Both the position numbers and the translations under genes were made by a program. Shown here piece after piece: positions 16,675 to 21,109 of a stretch of 64,000 nucleotides of DNA (the first letter of the stretch is position 1; every line of letters begins with the position of its first letter). The notes under the pieces are model-generated. The model ran no database searches, had not been told where the DNA came from, and saw nothing but the letters and a program-made list of their open reading frames with translations. The stretch lies in NCBI GenBank assembly GCA_009837355.1, contig VXTR01000024.1, forward strand, positions 1 through 64,000, in the 5' to 3' direction. The stretch comes from Chloroflexota bacterium. GTDB taxonomy: Bacteria > Chloroflexota > Dehalococcoidia > Lucifugimonadales > UBA3495.

Positions 16675-17508
16675 TCAGCCGGAAGGTCTGGCTACGAAGA
16701 GGGCCCAGCCGATGTTGCCGGCGTTGCCGGAGTCCACCCAGAAAGACAGGGCAGCAACGGTGTTGTCGATGGTTTCGGCGCCGACGCGGGGCAGCAAGGC
16801 GTGCCGCTGTTCCTGCAGGCGGTCGCGAACCCAGGCGTAGGAAGGGGCGACGTGTTGCGACCAGTCTTCCTCACGCGTCACCGTGAGTTCCAAGGCGGCG
16901 AGAGCCTTGCGGTAGTCGGGCAGGTCCCACATATCCGGCGATTTCACCCGGTCGTAGATTCTGGCCCGGTCGGCGTCGGGGGTATCTCGGCGCACCAGGA
17001 TGTCGGTGAATATGAGGGTACCATCGGGTTTCAGGACGCGCCGGCATTCGGACAGAACGGCGTTTTTGTCCGCGGCGTGGAGGAAGGCTTCCTGGCTCCA
17101 AACCACGTCGTAGGAATCGTCGGGGTAGGGCAGGCGATGGAAGTCGCCGTACTCGAAAGAGAGGAGCGAGTCAAGTCCGGCCTCACGGCTGCGGACGCGG
17201 GCCAGCTCCAGTTCCTTCTCGCTGATGTTGGTTCCGGTTACGCGGCAGCCGTAGTTGGCGGCCAGGTAGCGGGCGGTGGCGCCGTAGCCGCAGCCCAAGT
17301 CGAGGACGTGGGATTGCGGGGTCAGGGGCACGGCCTGGGCCATGATGGCGTTGGTGTTTTCCATAGCCTCCGGGTGCGAGCAGCCGTCGTAGGAGGGTAC
17401 GCCGAGGTGGAGGTTGTCGCCCCAGATGGTGCGGTAGATTTCGTCGGCCGGCCCGTCGTAGTAGGCCTGAGTGTCGGCAACGATGGCGCCGACGTTAGGT
17501 TGGGTCAT
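16675..17508 (-). CDS. Sarcosine/dimethylglycine N-methyltransferase
   Basis: The 277-residue protein has IWGDNLHLGVPSYD, motif I VLDLGCGYGATARYLAANYG, YPDDSYDVVWSQEAFLHAAD and the C-terminal ALSFWVDSGNAGNIGWALF. All are typical of sarcosine/dimethylglycine methyltransferases, which finish glycine betaine synthesis. I place the start at ATG 17508 (MTQPNVG). The eight bases overlapping and upstream of it (CATAAAAG on the plus strand) are the target-site duplication of the adjacent transposon. No Shine-Dalgarno sequence remains within reach, because the transposon end is 5 bp away. An in-frame GTG at 17556 inside the transposon could add 16 residues. The lost site AGGAG is still visible at 21116-21120, beyond the transposon. 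Confidence 0.85.
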   Translation of the reverse strand: MTQPNVGAIVADTQAYYDGPADEIYRTIWGDNLHLGVPSYDGCSHPEAMENTNAIMAQAVPLTPQSHVLDLGCGYGATARYLAANYGCRVTGTNISEKELELARVRSREAGLDSLLSFEYGDFHRLPYPDDSYDVVWSQEAFLHAADKNAVLSECRRVLKPDGTLIFTDILVRRDTPDADRARIYDRVKSPDMWDLPDYRKALAALELTVTREEDWSQHVAPSYAWVRDRLQEQRHALLPRVGAETIDNTVAALSFWVDSGNAGNIGWALFVARPSG

Positions 17509-17513
17509 AAAAG
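17506..17513. repeat. Target-site duplication, left copy
   Basis: CATAAAAG directly abuts the left terminal inverted repeat and is repeated exactly at 21102-21109. An 8-bp duplication is what IS1595-family transposition leaves. Confidence 0.88.
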
Positions 17514-17545
17514 GGGGCCTATATACCTGGCTACACACGGGTCGC
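17514..17545 (+). repeat. Left terminal inverted repeat
   Basis: These 32 bp are identical to the reverse complement of 21070-21101. The repeat includes a TATATA stretch about 10 bp inside the end that could act as an outward -10 box toward the methyltransferase gene. Confidence 0.9.
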
Positions 17546-17562
17546 CTAACGCACAAACCCCT

Positions 17563-18201
17563 TCACACCATATCCGCCCTCAGTCCCGGCACCAACGCAG
17601 CCCTCCTAATAGCATCGACCGCTTCGTCAAGTGTCAACGGCTTCGGCCATGGAAATGGCTCAATAGCGTGCAGGGAACCGGCGATTGCCGCAAGTCCGCT
17701 TTCCTCTCGGCATTCAAAAGCATAGCCCCAGCGAAGAACTTCCGCTTGGATGACATTCAGTACATCCCACACGAACCCCTCCGGTAAATCCTCACCGATA
17801 AGGAGGAATCCCACCGGGCGACGTTGCGATAGGAAGCGCATGGCGTGCTCCACCGGCTCGTCAAACTTTCGTATGCGGGCGCGCTTGGGTTGTTCCGGCA
17901 CGGTTAGGGCGTCCGAATGCAGGTTGAGCAAGAGCACGTGAAAATCGGGAGCCTGCATAATGGAATCGTGGGTGATGCCTGCGAATGGCTCCACGCCGAA
18001 GCGTTCAAGATACGGCCCAGCTTTGGATGCGTCCGGGTCGTAGGCGTAGGCGATTTCAAGGTCGGCTTTAACGGCGGCGTCAGCCATCCGACCGTCGCCG
18101 CCATAGAGGTCAGCGCAGCGGAGAAATCCGGTAGTGGCGGGGACTCGGGGATGTAGCAAGTTCTCAATAGTCCGTTCAATAAATTGTTCGTAGTTTACCA
18201 C
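17563..18201 (-). CDS. Dcm-like cytosine methyltransferase homologue lacking the catalytic loop (transposon passenger)
   Basis: The 212-residue protein starts like C5-cytosine methyltransferases. LRCADLYGGDGRMADAAVK resembles motif I (DLFAGxGG), IAYAYDPDASKAGPYLERFG resembles motif II, PFAGITHD motif III and DFHVLLLNL motif IV. Where active enzymes have Pro-Cys-Gln, this protein has LNLHSDAL, so the nucleophilic cysteine is missing. The target-recognition half is also replaced by a short helical C terminus. It is therefore probably not an active methyltransferase; it may bind SAM or DNA. It lies just inside the left end of the IS1595-family element, reading outward. Confidence 0.55.
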   Translation of the reverse strand: MVNYEQFIERTIENLLHPRVPATTGFLRCADLYGGDGRMADAAVKADLEIAYAYDPDASKAGPYLERFGVEPFAGITHDSIMQAPDFHVLLLNLHSDALTVPEQPKRARIRKFDEPVEHAMRFLSQRRPVGFLLIGEDLPEGFVWDVLNVIQAEVLRWGYAFECREESGLAAIAGSLHAIEPFPWPKPLTLDEAVDAIRRAALVPGLRADMV

Positions 18202-18258
18202 GGCTTACCCCCTGGTGTGCTGTCTGCGGAAAGGATAGATCCGATTCGCCAGGCGCTG

Positions 18259-18756
18259 TCAATGGATGGGATTAGCCAGTTTCGGAAAATGGAGCGCGAA
18301 TTCAGCGCGGACTTGCTGCCAGAGGGAATCGTCCAAAGCACCAGTCCCATTGATTTTGTTGACTACGTTATATCCGGCAGCATCCAGGTCGTTGATGAGT
18401 TGTCCTTCCATTGCAAGCATTTGTTTCCTATTCCCGCCAAATTCGTCTCTGTTGTTAGTCACAGGATAAATCGGGCCAACGGCTACCATCCGAATTTCTC
18501 CACACTGCCACGGGTCGATGTCCGCGAAATCGGGGGAATCTCTGAAGACGGAATATGTTTTACTCTTTGGTGGGTGCGGGTCAAGATGCCACCAAAAACG
18601 ACGAAACGCTGACTTTGAGTTTCGTAAGTCGTTGCTTCCAGTCATCCCGACGTAAATTAGTTCCCCTTTTGGAGATTCCACCCGAAGCGCATAAAGCCAG
18701 AAGCCATCAGCGACGGCGACGCCTGGGGCTGACAGAATGTGAGTGCGTAATAACAT
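18259..18756 (-). CDS. GIY-YIG-like domain protein (transposon passenger)
   Basis: This 165-residue protein shows WLYALRV followed by LIYVGMTGS, resembling the paired GIY and YIG strands of GIY-YIG nucleases. A basic helix SAFRRFWWHL and a glutamate in AMEGQLINDL sit where the family has its Arg and metal-binding Glu. The middle (YSVFRDSPDFADIDPWQCGE) is unfamiliar. I choose ATG 18756 (MLLRTHILSAPG), preceded by GAAGAGGAA. The frame is open to 18849, but those residues run through the divergent promoter region. It lies 57 bp upstream of the Dcm-like gene on the same strand, so the two may be co-transcribed. Assignment is by motif only. Confidence 0.5.
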   Translation of the reverse strand: MLLRTHILSAPGVAVADGFWLYALRVESPKGELIYVGMTGSNDLRNSKSAFRRFWWHLDPHPPKSKTYSVFRDSPDFADIDPWQCGEIRMVAVGPIYPVTNNRDEFGGNRKQMLAMEGQLINDLDAAGYNVVNKINGTGALDDSLWQQVRAEFALHFPKLANPIH

Positions 18757-18779
18757 TTCCTCTTCCCTTGTTCTCGTAC

Positions 18780-18813
18780 TTGACACGTTTGTTCTCCGTA
18801 CTATTCCATGGAA
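18780..18813 (+). promoter_or_regulatory. Possible promoter and operator between divergent passenger genes
   Basis: TTGACA at 18780-18785 is followed by a perfect 10-bp palindrome TTCCATGGAA at 18804-18813 where a -10 box would be expected. It sits between the divergent genes at 18756 and 18851. The -10 match is poor, so the assignment is tentative. Confidence 0.25.
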
Positions 18814-18850
18814 CGGACATAACATCGTACACGCGCACCGGAGGAACAAG

Positions 18851-19192
18851 ATGAATTACCAGCAAACTACCAAATTCCATGATTGCATGATCGAATGCGC
18901 CATACACATGGCACGGGAAATGGTTACCTATGGAACCCAACATGAAGAACCAAATGTTCAGTGGGACTGCTTTGAACATTGGCTCCTAGAGGGCAACAAT
19001 AGGATAATATTAGGTGAAACAATCCTCGCCATGCCCGGTATTGAGGAACGCATTGTTGACAATTTCGTTGACTGTCTCCATGACCTTTTCGTGGATGTTG
19101 ATGGAGGAACCGTGTGGGCTGATAACAAACTCAATGACGTGGAGAAGCTCACCGTCCGCCGTATCACGATGGACATGGTCAACGCGGACTAA
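18851..19192 (+). CDS. Uncharacterised 113-residue protein (transposon passenger)
   Basis: ATG 18851 is preceded by GGAGG (18840-18844) at good distance; the open frame upstream to 18743 overlaps a divergent promoter. The protein is rich in acidic residues and His/Cys, with helices such as HDCMIECAIHMAREMV and IEERIVDNFVDCLHDLFVDV. It has no recognisable motif. Lower GC content than the surroundings supports acquisition with the transposon. Its function is unknown. Confidence 0.5.
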   Translation: MNYQQTTKFHDCMIECAIHMAREMVTYGTQHEEPNVQWDCFEHWLLEGNNRIILGETILAMPGIEERIVDNFVDCLHDLFVDVDGGTVWADNKLNDVEKLTVRRITMDMVNAD

Positions 19193-19244
19193 CCCGCCAT
19201 ATACCCGCACGGTTGAGCCGCAGGAAGCTTAGGCACCCTGCGGC

Positions 19245-19580
19245 TCATTCCTTGCTTGCCCGCCTCCGTCGGATGGTGCGATAGGTTTTGACGCCCAGAG
19301 CAATCGCTCCTATGAGAATGGCAAAATCCACAATGACGAAGAAGACGGTTTCCATCACAGGGAGCGAGCCGGTCGAATAACTGGAGATCACACGCCATAA
19401 GAGCATGATCGGGAGGTAGACGCCGACGCTGACGACAAGGCCGATCATGATAGCGGCAGCCTTGCCCCTTTCCTTGATGGGCAAAGAAGAAGCAACACTA
19501 CAATCAGCGCACTGCTGCTCCCATGTAGCGGCATCCACATTTAGAGGCGCACCACATTTCGCGCATTGTCTGCTGGTCAT
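19245..19580 (-). CDS. Zinc-ribbon protein with two membrane helices (transposon passenger)
   Basis: The 111-residue product begins MTSRQCAKCGAPLN, and a second pair QQCADC completes a CxxC...CxxC zinc ribbon (about residues 6-28). Two hydrophobic segments follow (about 42-63 and 76-97), with a basic C-terminal tail KTYRTIRRRRASKE. The layout suggests a membrane-anchored small regulator or chaperone with the ribbon in the cytoplasm. It lies inside the IS1595-family element, and its 5' region overlaps a strongly structured intergenic stretch. No named family is assigned. Confidence 0.6.
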   Translation of the reverse strand: MTSRQCAKCGAPLNVDAATWEQQCADCSVASSLPIKERGKAAAIMIGLVVSVGVYLPIMLLWRVISSYSTGSLPVMETVFFVIVDFAILIGAIALGVKTYRTIRRRRASKE

Positions 19581-19614
19581 TCGGGAACCCCCTTGCGGTT
19601 CAGGATAGGGCCAC

Positions 19615-19732
19615 TTGGCATAGTCGCCGGGTTCCCGTCAGCACAGGGCTTCCCGCAAGGAGGCATGATGCCTCTATCCGGTTGAGAAAACCCCGTGATG
19701 TAAAAAGCGGGCCGACCCCGCGACTATGCCAA
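19615..19732. other. Structured intergenic stretch (possible leader RNA)
   Basis: TTGGCATAGTCGC (19615-19627) and its exact reverse complement GCGACTATGCCAA (19720-19732) bracket about 92 bp. The interior contains smaller hairpins (AGGCAT/ATGCCT) and GGG/CCC pairings. On the minus strand the structure lies directly upstream of the zinc-ribbon gene. On the plus strand it precedes the transposase by about 115 bp. It resembles a closed multi-branched RNA, but I do not recognise a known riboswitch. Confidence 0.4.
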
Positions 19733-19847
19733 TGCCATCCTATCACAGGTCAGCGGCCGGGGGAATATCGATTTCGTTCAACCCGGCGGACGCGTCACTT
19801 GACAACCTTCCGTAGTGCGCGCTTAGCCTAAGGTTAGGAGGTGCACC

Positions 19848-20801
19848 ATGCCAAATAACCGTAAGATGAGCGTATTCGAACTATTAGAACGCGTCGCGAC
19901 CGAAGGGGATGCCGTAGATTTCCTCGAAGAATGCCGCTGGGGCGATACGCCACGTTGTCCGCGTTGCGCCTCAACTAATGTGGCCCGAACCCCACCAACC
20001 GCACCGATGCCTTGGCGCTGTCCGGCGTGCCGCAAATACTTCAACGTCCGCACCAACACGGTGATGGCCCAAAGCCAAATCCCGCTCAAAAAGTGGTGTC
20101 TGGCAATCTACTTGTTCCATAATAGCCGCAAGGGAATCTCGGCGCTGCAATTGGGGAGGGAACTAGGCCTGACTCCCAAATCCGCCAGGTTCTTGGCTAT
20201 GCGCATCCGTGAGGCCATGACCGTTGATCTGCCATTGCTGGATGGCGTAGTTGAAGCCGACGAGACTTATATCGGCGGCAAACCCCGCAGCAAACACGCT
20301 TGGCAGCGCGAACGAGACCGCGAAAAACGAGAAGCCGGCGTGCCCACGCGCCAAGTGGTGATGGGTATTAGGCAGCGCGACGGCAAGGTCGTTGCCTTCC
20401 CCATCGACCGGGCAGACCGTTATAACCTACAAATGGCAATTGGTGCGCACGTGGAACCCGGCAGTACGGTTTATACCGACGGCCACGGCGGATATCAGAA
20501 TATGCACGCCTACAACCATGATTGGGTCAACCACTCCGCTGGTGAATACGTTCACGGCATGGCGCACACCAACAGCATTGAATCGTTCTGGGCGTTGCTC
20601 AAACGGGGATACACGGGCACGTTCCACTTCTTCACCTTCAAACACCTGCATCGTTACGTGAACGAATTTGCGTACCGCCTGAATGCTGGCCCCGGCAATG
20701 ACTTTGGCGTCATCGCGGAGACCGTTCTGAATATGGAAGGCAAGCGCCTAACCTATAAGCAGCTTATCGGAGGAGAAATCGAATTCATAGATAGGGATTA
20801 G
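19848..20801 (+). CDS. IS1595-family transposase (ISXO2-like DDE)
   Basis: The 317-residue transposase has an N-terminal zinc ribbon (CPRCAS ... CPACRKYFNV), then an HTH region ALQLGRELGLTPKSARFLAMRIRE. The catalytic domain has VVEADETYIGGK (first Asp), STVYTDGHGGY (second Asp) and the C-terminal signature HTNSIESFWALLKRGYTGT followed by KHLHRYVNEFAYRLN. This is the ISXO2-like arrangement of the IS1595 family. GGAGG lies 6-10 bases before the ATG. It is intact and full length, and the surrounding 32-bp inverted repeats and 8-bp duplication show that it has moved as a unit. Confidence 0.93.
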   Translation: MPNNRKMSVFELLERVATEGDAVDFLEECRWGDTPRCPRCASTNVARTPPTAPMPWRCPACRKYFNVRTNTVMAQSQIPLKKWCLAIYLFHNSRKGISALQLGRELGLTPKSARFLAMRIREAMTVDLPLLDGVVEADETYIGGKPRSKHAWQRERDREKREAGVPTRQVVMGIRQRDGKVVAFPIDRADRYNLQMAIGAHVEPGSTVYTDGHGGYQNMHAYNHDWVNHSAGEYVHGMAHTNSIESFWALLKRGYTGTFHFFTFKHLHRYVNEFAYRLNAGPGNDFGVIAETVLNMEGKRLTYKQLIGGEIEFIDRD

Positions 20802-20831
20802 GCAGACCCCGGAGACCTTGATATACTGGAA

Positions 20832-20861
20832 GAGCCCCGGACGAGGCAACGTCCGGGGCTC
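20832..20861 (+). terminator. Strong hairpin after the transposase gene
   Basis: GAGCCCCGGACG and CGTCCGGGGCTC form a perfect 12-bp stem with a 6-base loop, 31 bp after the transposase stop. There is no T-run, so it may stabilise the transcript end rather than terminate it alone. Confidence 0.5.
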
Positions 20862-20908
20862 GGCGCAATCCAAGTGTTGCCCCTACCAAGAACAACAAGG
20901 AGGGAGTT

Positions 20909-21070
20909 GTGGATACTACCCCAGGACTGCTTATACCAGTAAAAATCAGACGCAAAAACCAGCGTAAGTCAAATCATCACAGTCATTCCATCAAATTTGC
21001 AAGGAAGCCCAACGGCAAACCACGGGAACGAAGACTGCGGGGACGCAGGGCGATGTGGCCGCATTGTTAG
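20909..21070 (+). CDS. Small basic ORF at the right end of the transposon
   Basis: A GTG at 20909, preceded by AAGGAGGG at 20898-20904, opens a 53-residue frame. It is very rich in Lys and Arg (VKIRRKNQRK, RERRLRGRR) and ends exactly at the inner edge of the right inverted repeat. The strong ribosome site and position argue for translation. Composition suggests nucleic-acid binding. No family is recognised, and chance cannot be excluded. Confidence 0.35.
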   Translation: MDTTPGLLIPVKIRRKNQRKSNHHSHSIKFARKPNGKPRERRLRGRRAMWPHC

Positions 21071-21101
21071 CGACCCGTGTGTAGCCAGGTATATAGGCCC
21101 C
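21070..21101 (-). repeat. Right terminal inverted repeat
   Basis: These 32 bp match the left end perfectly in inverted orientation and are followed immediately by CATAAAAG. Confidence 0.9.
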
Positions 21102-21109
21102 CATAAAAG
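21102..21109. repeat. Target-site duplication, right copy
   Basis: CATAAAAG is identical to 17506-17513. Downstream, on the minus strand, AGGAG (21116-21120) would sit 11 bases from the methyltransferase ATG if the transposon were removed. Confidence 0.88.

Follow-up and report, generated by a model that had tools for sequence, protein, structure and literature searches.

A Catalytically Dead Methyltransferase Fold, Probably Kept as a Partner of Transposition, in a Complete IS1595-Family Transposon of a SAR202-Type Bacterium

The stretch of DNA analyzed here, 64,000 nucleotides in its full length (the window), contains a complete IS1595-family transposon of 3,588 bp (positions 17514-21101) in a lineage of SAR202-type bacteria (Dehalococcoidia, Chloroflexota). 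Together with its transposase the element encodes a half-length, Dcm-like 5-methylcytosine methyltransferase that is catalytically dead, the fold of which has probably been retained as a noncatalytic partner of transposition in an element that is itself probably mobile. An enzyme that once belonged to a restriction-modification system appears to have been retained and put to a new use.

Structure of the Transposon and Its Insertion Site

The element is bounded by perfect terminal inverted repeats (TIRs), each adjoined on its outer side by an exact copy of the target duplication (Table 1). The coordinates and identity of the TIRs, and the duplication bounding 3,588 bp, were reproduced as they had been given in the initial annotation; the repeat finder reported 33 bp for the TIRs, the extra pair being the G that ends and the C that begins the duplication. 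By chance, the expectation for such a pair in 4.6 kb is ∼10^7 position pairs × 4^-32, and a perfect match over 32 bp is therefore not accidental. In the survey described below, true ends scored 28-32 of 32, and the next-best pairs at those loci seldom exceeded 25. The TIRs are the putative recognition sites of the transposase. A duplication of 8 bp, which had been taken as established for IS1595, is indeed listed as a feature of the family in PMC8101967 (citing Siguier et al. 2009), and the other complete elements surveyed have duplications of the same length.

Table 1. Features of the IS1595-family transposon in the window
Feature	Position	Strand	Remarks
Left target duplication copy	17506..17513	.	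CATAAAAG, 8 bp, exact
Left TIR	17514..17545	+	32 bp, GGGGCCTATATACCTGGCTACACACGGGTCGC
Dead half-length 5-methylcytosine methyltransferase (Dcm-like)	17563..18201	-	212 aa, GTG start
GIY-YIG-nuclease-like protein	18259..18756	-	165 aa from ATG 18756
113-aa ORF	18851..19192	+	present
Terminator-like hairpin	19215..19250	.	between convergent genes
Zinc-ribbon and transmembrane protein	19245..19580	-	111 aa; weak matches just under Pfam cut-offs
Long stable hairpin	19615..19732	.	118 bp; 18-bp arms, 94% paired
IS1595 (ISXO2-like) DDE transposase	19848..20801	+	317 aa, N-terminal zinc ribbon, intact
Terminator-like perfect hairpin	20832..20861	.	after transposase gene
Basic 53-aa ORF	20909..21070	+	open; gene status doubtful
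Right TIR	21070..21101	-	32 bp, identical to left TIR over 32 bp
Right target duplication copy	21102..21109	.	CATAAAAG, 8 bp, exact

The transposase passes the cut-offs of PF12762 (DDE_Tnp_IS1595; 1.7e-39, 135.7 bits, cut-off 27), the zinc ribbon PF12760 (2.6e-08, 34.1 bits, cut-off 25.4), and NF033547 (3.1e-52, 177.6 bits, cut-off 75), and retains the family blocks VEADETYIGG, YTDGHGGY, and TNSIESFWALLKRG, in agreement with its initial description as an intact ISXO2-like enzyme. It therefore combines the DDE_Tnp_IS1595/ISXO2-like domain with an N-terminal zinc ribbon, the latter being a feature of IS1595 transposases except those of the IS1016 group. The ends, the duplication, and the transposase profile matches agree with the first annotation in identifying a complete transposon of the IS1595 family that carries passengers.

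The element is inserted where a minus-strand SAM-methyltransferase gene (16675-17508) starts; the start codon of this gene, CAT on the plus strand, is overlapped by the left duplication copy. The upstream part of the locus, the left flank, is ∼81% identical in two congeners from which the element is absent, but the right flank is not conserved, and consequently the search for empty sites gave this one-sided match and no clean empty site. A search for the same 3.6-kb unit elsewhere gave no identical copy; the genome itself holds only diverged elements, so that present-day mobility, although probable, is unproven. From what PMC5704250 describes for the family, the mode of mobility would be replicative. 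Neither of the two refuting observations named in the initial annotation was made: in no genome did these genes occupy the site with the repeats missing, nor were the repeats found apart from a transposase. TIRs were not found for several loci at contig ends, and a TIR-pattern search allowing 3 mismatches was rejected as mostly noise, its controls being as frequent as its matches, so that it was usable only for pairs.

The long hairpin at 19615-19732 separates the zinc-ribbon gene from the transposase gene and is upstream of both; a 156-nt fold has a free energy of -78.7 kcal/mol (z -5.4). Rfam gave no match in the window, this hairpin included, and the congeners have only weak partial matches to it; a regulatory RNA is one possibility, and a nested palindromic repeat another. 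The 36-bp hairpin at 19215-19250 is 92% identical to positions 3399-3434 of L009, an otherwise diverged element of the same genome, and has apparently been exchanged or conserved between the two.

The Methyltransferase-like Protein

Common ancestry of the Dcm-like protein and M.HhaI-type 5-methylcytosine methyltransferases is well supported. A profile built from dead members alone matches residues 12-192 of M.HhaI (4.8e-07), and a model of the window protein made with AlphaFold2 (pLDDT 77.8, pTM 0.78) has M.HhaI as its best Foldseek match (1.2e-07), with a VIA Z score of 16.9 over 180 residues (rmsd 3.3). Profile, model, Foldseek, and VIA thus agree on common ancestry with PF00145 and on the catalytic-domain fold. 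Cytosine methyltransferases of the DNMT2/DNMT1 type also match the fold, with scores below that of M.HhaI, but these have a full-length catalytic domain, whereas the window protein is of half length and its catalytic motifs are gone.

Both M.HhaI and the window protein have the Rossmann catalytic-domain fold, but the latter covers motifs I-VIII only and stops after the core. The absence of the Pro-Cys loop, noted in the initial annotation, was confirmed and proved to be more extensive: the catalytic Pro-Cys of motif IV (His-Ser in the window), the Glu of ENV in motif VI, the QRR of motif VIII, the target-recognition domain, and motif X are absent from 15 of 15 members of the dead family. Because the catalytic residues are absent, the window element does not contain the active cognate methyltransferase of a type II restriction-modification system. 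The SAM-binding motif I (FxGxG-like) reads YGGDG in the window but is eroded in L050, L051, L053, L054, L059, L063, and L071, which represent a derived branch of the family, while a helix-strand stretch of the core, LRFLRVRRPxxFLL, is kept.

A search with a profile built from seven sequences defined this family of 15 members, of which 14 adjoin an IS1595 transposase (the window, L050-L054, L059, L063, L067, L068, L071-L073, and L076). The fifteenth is a remnant in the same genome as the window (G000:C43), which contains one stop and has no transposase found nearby; in a scan of 50 host-family genomes, the only other dead copies that do not adjoin an IS1595 transposase are two near contig starts. 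No dead methyltransferase was found in plasmids or phages, and a conserved-stretch search based on a close subset of the family matched six loci in genome_contigs but nothing in viral_contigs. The named hosts of relatives are SAR202 cluster bacterium bin87, uncultured Dehalococcoidia, and Chloroflexota MAGs.

The dead gene is under purifying selection, as measured in one pair, the closest (L053/L054), with dN 0.034, dS 0.250 (dN/dS ∼0.14), and a third-position excess (p 5e-6); the constraint on the transposase of this pair is nearly equal (dN 0.032, dS 0.291). The dead protein also co-diversifies with the transposase: in the 13 elements compared, the identities of the two are correlated (Mantel r 0.819, p 2e-4), and on the transposase tree the presence of the dead gene requires 3 changes as compared with 11.2 in shuffles. 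It lies directly downstream of the transposase gene in L051, L067, and L068 and is divergent from it in L050, L052-L054, L059, and the window. The sister elements L009 and L016, which carry the GIY-YIG gene and group together with strong support in a branch nested next to the larger dead group, have no dead protein, and transposition is therefore not strictly dependent on it.

Other Passengers of the Element

The assignment of the protein initially described as GIY-YIG-like rests on its conserved motifs: the catalytic set of the superfamily (Tyr, Tyr-x-Gly, Arg, Glu) is present, with Tyr22, Tyr35-Val36-Gly37, Arg53, His57, and Glu117 invariant in six relatives, although its matches to Pfam PF01541 (E 0.15-0.27) are under the cut-off. 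A single-sequence structure model (pLDDT 41) was too poor for use, and a PDB search with the alignment gave chance-level matches only. On its motifs, it is a putative nuclease cargo that may be active. Homologues occur in L009 (57% identity), L016, L017-L019, and one Agrobacterium plasmid; in the last of these (A. pusense plasmid pC, L159 4001-7456), the source of one of the six relatives, the gene is annotated as hypothetical and adjoins an MmeI-like restriction-modification (methyltransferase) gene.

The 113-residue and zinc-ribbon membrane ORFs of the initial annotation are present, the former, searched as a longer frame in Pfam, NCBIfam, and PHROGs, matching no family there or in PADLOC. 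The basic 53-residue frame is open, as annotated, but its status as a gene is doubtful, since no relative was found by tblastn among the surveyed loci. The combination of passengers had been called unfamiliar; the exact set was found in no other element examined, but two of its members, the Dcm-like and GIY-YIG proteins, recur. With at least three passengers, the element differs from the usual single-gene IS1595.

IS1595 Transposons and Their Cargo in Chloroflexota

Elements of this family were surveyed in 49 host-family (Dehalococcoidia/SAR202) genomes, in which PF12762 identified ∼46 transposase places, and in a phylum-wide Chloroflexota sample of 20 loci. In the host family, a finder that asked for matching 24-bp ends and a duplicated 8-bp target (at least 7 of 8) on either side of the transposase, the runner-up scores at the same loci serving as the null, yielded 15 complete elements, including that of the window (2.4-10.3 kb); 16 of the 20 phylum-wide loci were complete (1.4-4.9 kb). 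A typical IS1595 element is small and encodes just the transposase, although a single gene is not obligatory; none of these 31 complete transposons (1.4-10.3 kb) has the transposase as its only gene. One survey of insertion sequences gives a length of 700-1,287 bp for the family (PMC7371123).

Methyltransferase genes of restriction-modification type are present in 12 of the 31 complete elements, and genes of toxin-antitoxin type in two more (HicB-like in L148, PIN in L149). By Pfam, an N6/N4 methyltransferase is accompanied by HNH or Mrr in L056, L057, and L061 and stands alone in L060; L058 has a 5-methylcytosine methyltransferase with a 260-aa protein, L066 a D12 methyltransferase with NotI, and L078 D12 with PDDEXK_11. 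L138 carries a large N6-methylase with an HsdR N-terminal domain and L144 an N6/N4 methyltransferase with PIN, and L143, L155, and L156 match the methyltransferases of L078 or L057/L060 by tblastn. Some of these genes appear frame-broken (L060, L061, and L155), and hence not all of the cargo need be active. The order transposase, methyltransferase, restriction-type protein (tnp-M-R) of L058 recurs inside IS1595 ends in L113, which belongs to a different order of the class, with the duplication TTTCTAAA. The unit of transposase, 5-methylcytosine methyltransferase, and 250-260-aa protein, seen in different families of the class, spans 4770-7882 in L113 and 761-3628 in L058; its third protein has no Pfam match but contains a stretch, DVExNGCAWSxKTVK, like those of PD-(D/E)XK nucleases.

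The window genome (G000) contains two further complete IS1595 transposons. L009 (contig C38; 4,360 bp, duplication CATCCCGG) has the GIY-YIG passenger in common with the window and interrupts what appears, from its translated ORFs, to be a GMC-oxidoreductase-like gene; L050 (contig C89; 4,427 bp, duplication GCGCACGT) has the Dcm-like passenger family in common with it. Elsewhere, L051 (6833-17150, duplication GCTCGGGC) is a 10.3-kb transposon with many ORFs, unusually long for the family, and a second recurrent passenger, of no assigned function, occurs at L063 4784-5257 and L073 5184-6278 and also in L053 and L064 (∼41-95% identical).

Origin and Role of the Dead Methyltransferase

The transposase would cut at the 32-bp ends and join them to target DNA, generating the 8-bp duplication, in an element that appears to belong to a set of Chloroflexota IS1595 transposons with selfish or defense cargo (restriction-modification and toxin-antitoxin). 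The ancestor of the Dcm-like gene was most likely an active 5-methylcytosine methyltransferase of a tnp-M-R transposon like L058 and L113, which contain its active-type relatives in different families of the class, the direction of change being inferred. Catalysis and the target-recognition half would then have been lost and the Rossmann core kept. Because the protein is conserved beside the transposase and persists there under transposase-like constraint as its enzymatic parts erode, it is most likely a noncatalytic partner or regulator of the transposase, although the elements without it (L009 and L016) and the variation in gene order and strand count against an obligate partnership. More tentatively, and with somewhat less than an even chance of being correct, this may be an exaptation, in which a restriction-modification methyltransferase without catalysis or target recognition, and in a derived branch also without cofactor binding, became a conserved subunit or regulator of IS1595 transposition; its role could then be in target choice, target immunity, or control of the transposase.

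A function in defense or counter-defense is rather unlikely. The dead methyltransferase would then have cargo nucleases, for example the GIY-YIG protein, and not the transposase as its partners, serving as a subunit that senses DNA or regulates, or it would be a decoy against host restriction. The origin of the protein in restriction-modification cargo, the conserved catalytic residues of the GIY-YIG protein, and the restriction-modification and toxin-antitoxin genes in other IS1595 elements of the phylum would fit such a function, but the constant neighbor in the dead clade is the transposase rather than a nuclease, a GIY-YIG gene is missing from most dead-class elements, the GIY-YIG elements L009 and L016 have no dead gene, and PADLOC gave no match above noise for the window proteins.

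It is decidedly unlikely that the Dcm-like gene is a functionless, decaying leftover of a restriction-modification system (5-methylcytosine methyltransferase and GIY-YIG nuclease) once carried by the element. Many transposons of the family carry active-type methyltransferases with nucleases, the same genome has the stop-bearing remnant, and the GIY-YIG homologue of the Agrobacterium plasmid has a restriction-modification neighbor, all as expected of a relic; however, independent decay is disfavored because ∼15 divergent copies are open, of similar length, and missing the same parts, and because of the low dN/dS and the co-diversification with the transposase. Split methyltransferases of the M.AquI type are known, and a protein covering just motifs I-VIII might be one half of such an enzyme with the other encoded elsewhere in the element, but this was rejected as scarcely credible, since no C-terminal half was found in any dead-class element and the Cys and Glu needed for catalysis, which the first half would have to supply, are gone in all 15 members.

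Retention of the dead fold as a partner of transposition can be set against systems already known, which include IS1595 elements with passengers (PMC5704250) and mobile restriction-modification systems (PMC3031569). Passenger-bearing members are an accepted exception to the single-gene rule in the family, and PMC5704250 describes tISCpe8 of Clostridium perfringens (lincomycin resistance) and MTnSag1 of Streptococcus agalactiae; these resemble the window element in having an IS1595 DDE transposase, TIRs, a target duplication, and passengers between the ends, but its recurrent passenger is a dead methyltransferase, and its relatives carry restriction-modification modules in place of resistance or mobilization genes. 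PMC3031569 and its references describe restriction-modification genes that are on transposons, flanked by insertion sequences, or inserted with long target duplications, including PluTI and a transposon-like system of Rhizobium. There, as in the surveyed elements, the restriction-modification unit moves within a mobile element, L058, L066, L078, L113, and others combining transposase, methyltransferase, and nuclease within IS1595 ends and an 8-bp duplication; the window element differs in that its methyltransferase is dead. In a literature that represented the family-defining 2009 paper through citing papers only, no description was found of a dead methyltransferase that is conserved as a partner of IS1595, or of IS1595 elements that regularly carry restriction-modification modules.

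Throughout the phylum Chloroflexota, IS1595 elements have the appearance of vehicles for restriction-modification and toxin-antitoxin modules, and in one branch all that remains of the methyltransferase, beside the transposase, is its inactive core. The transposase and the dead methyltransferase form a small protein pair that is directly testable, and if the core acts in transposition, it would show a selfish cargo gene becoming part of the machinery of a transposon.
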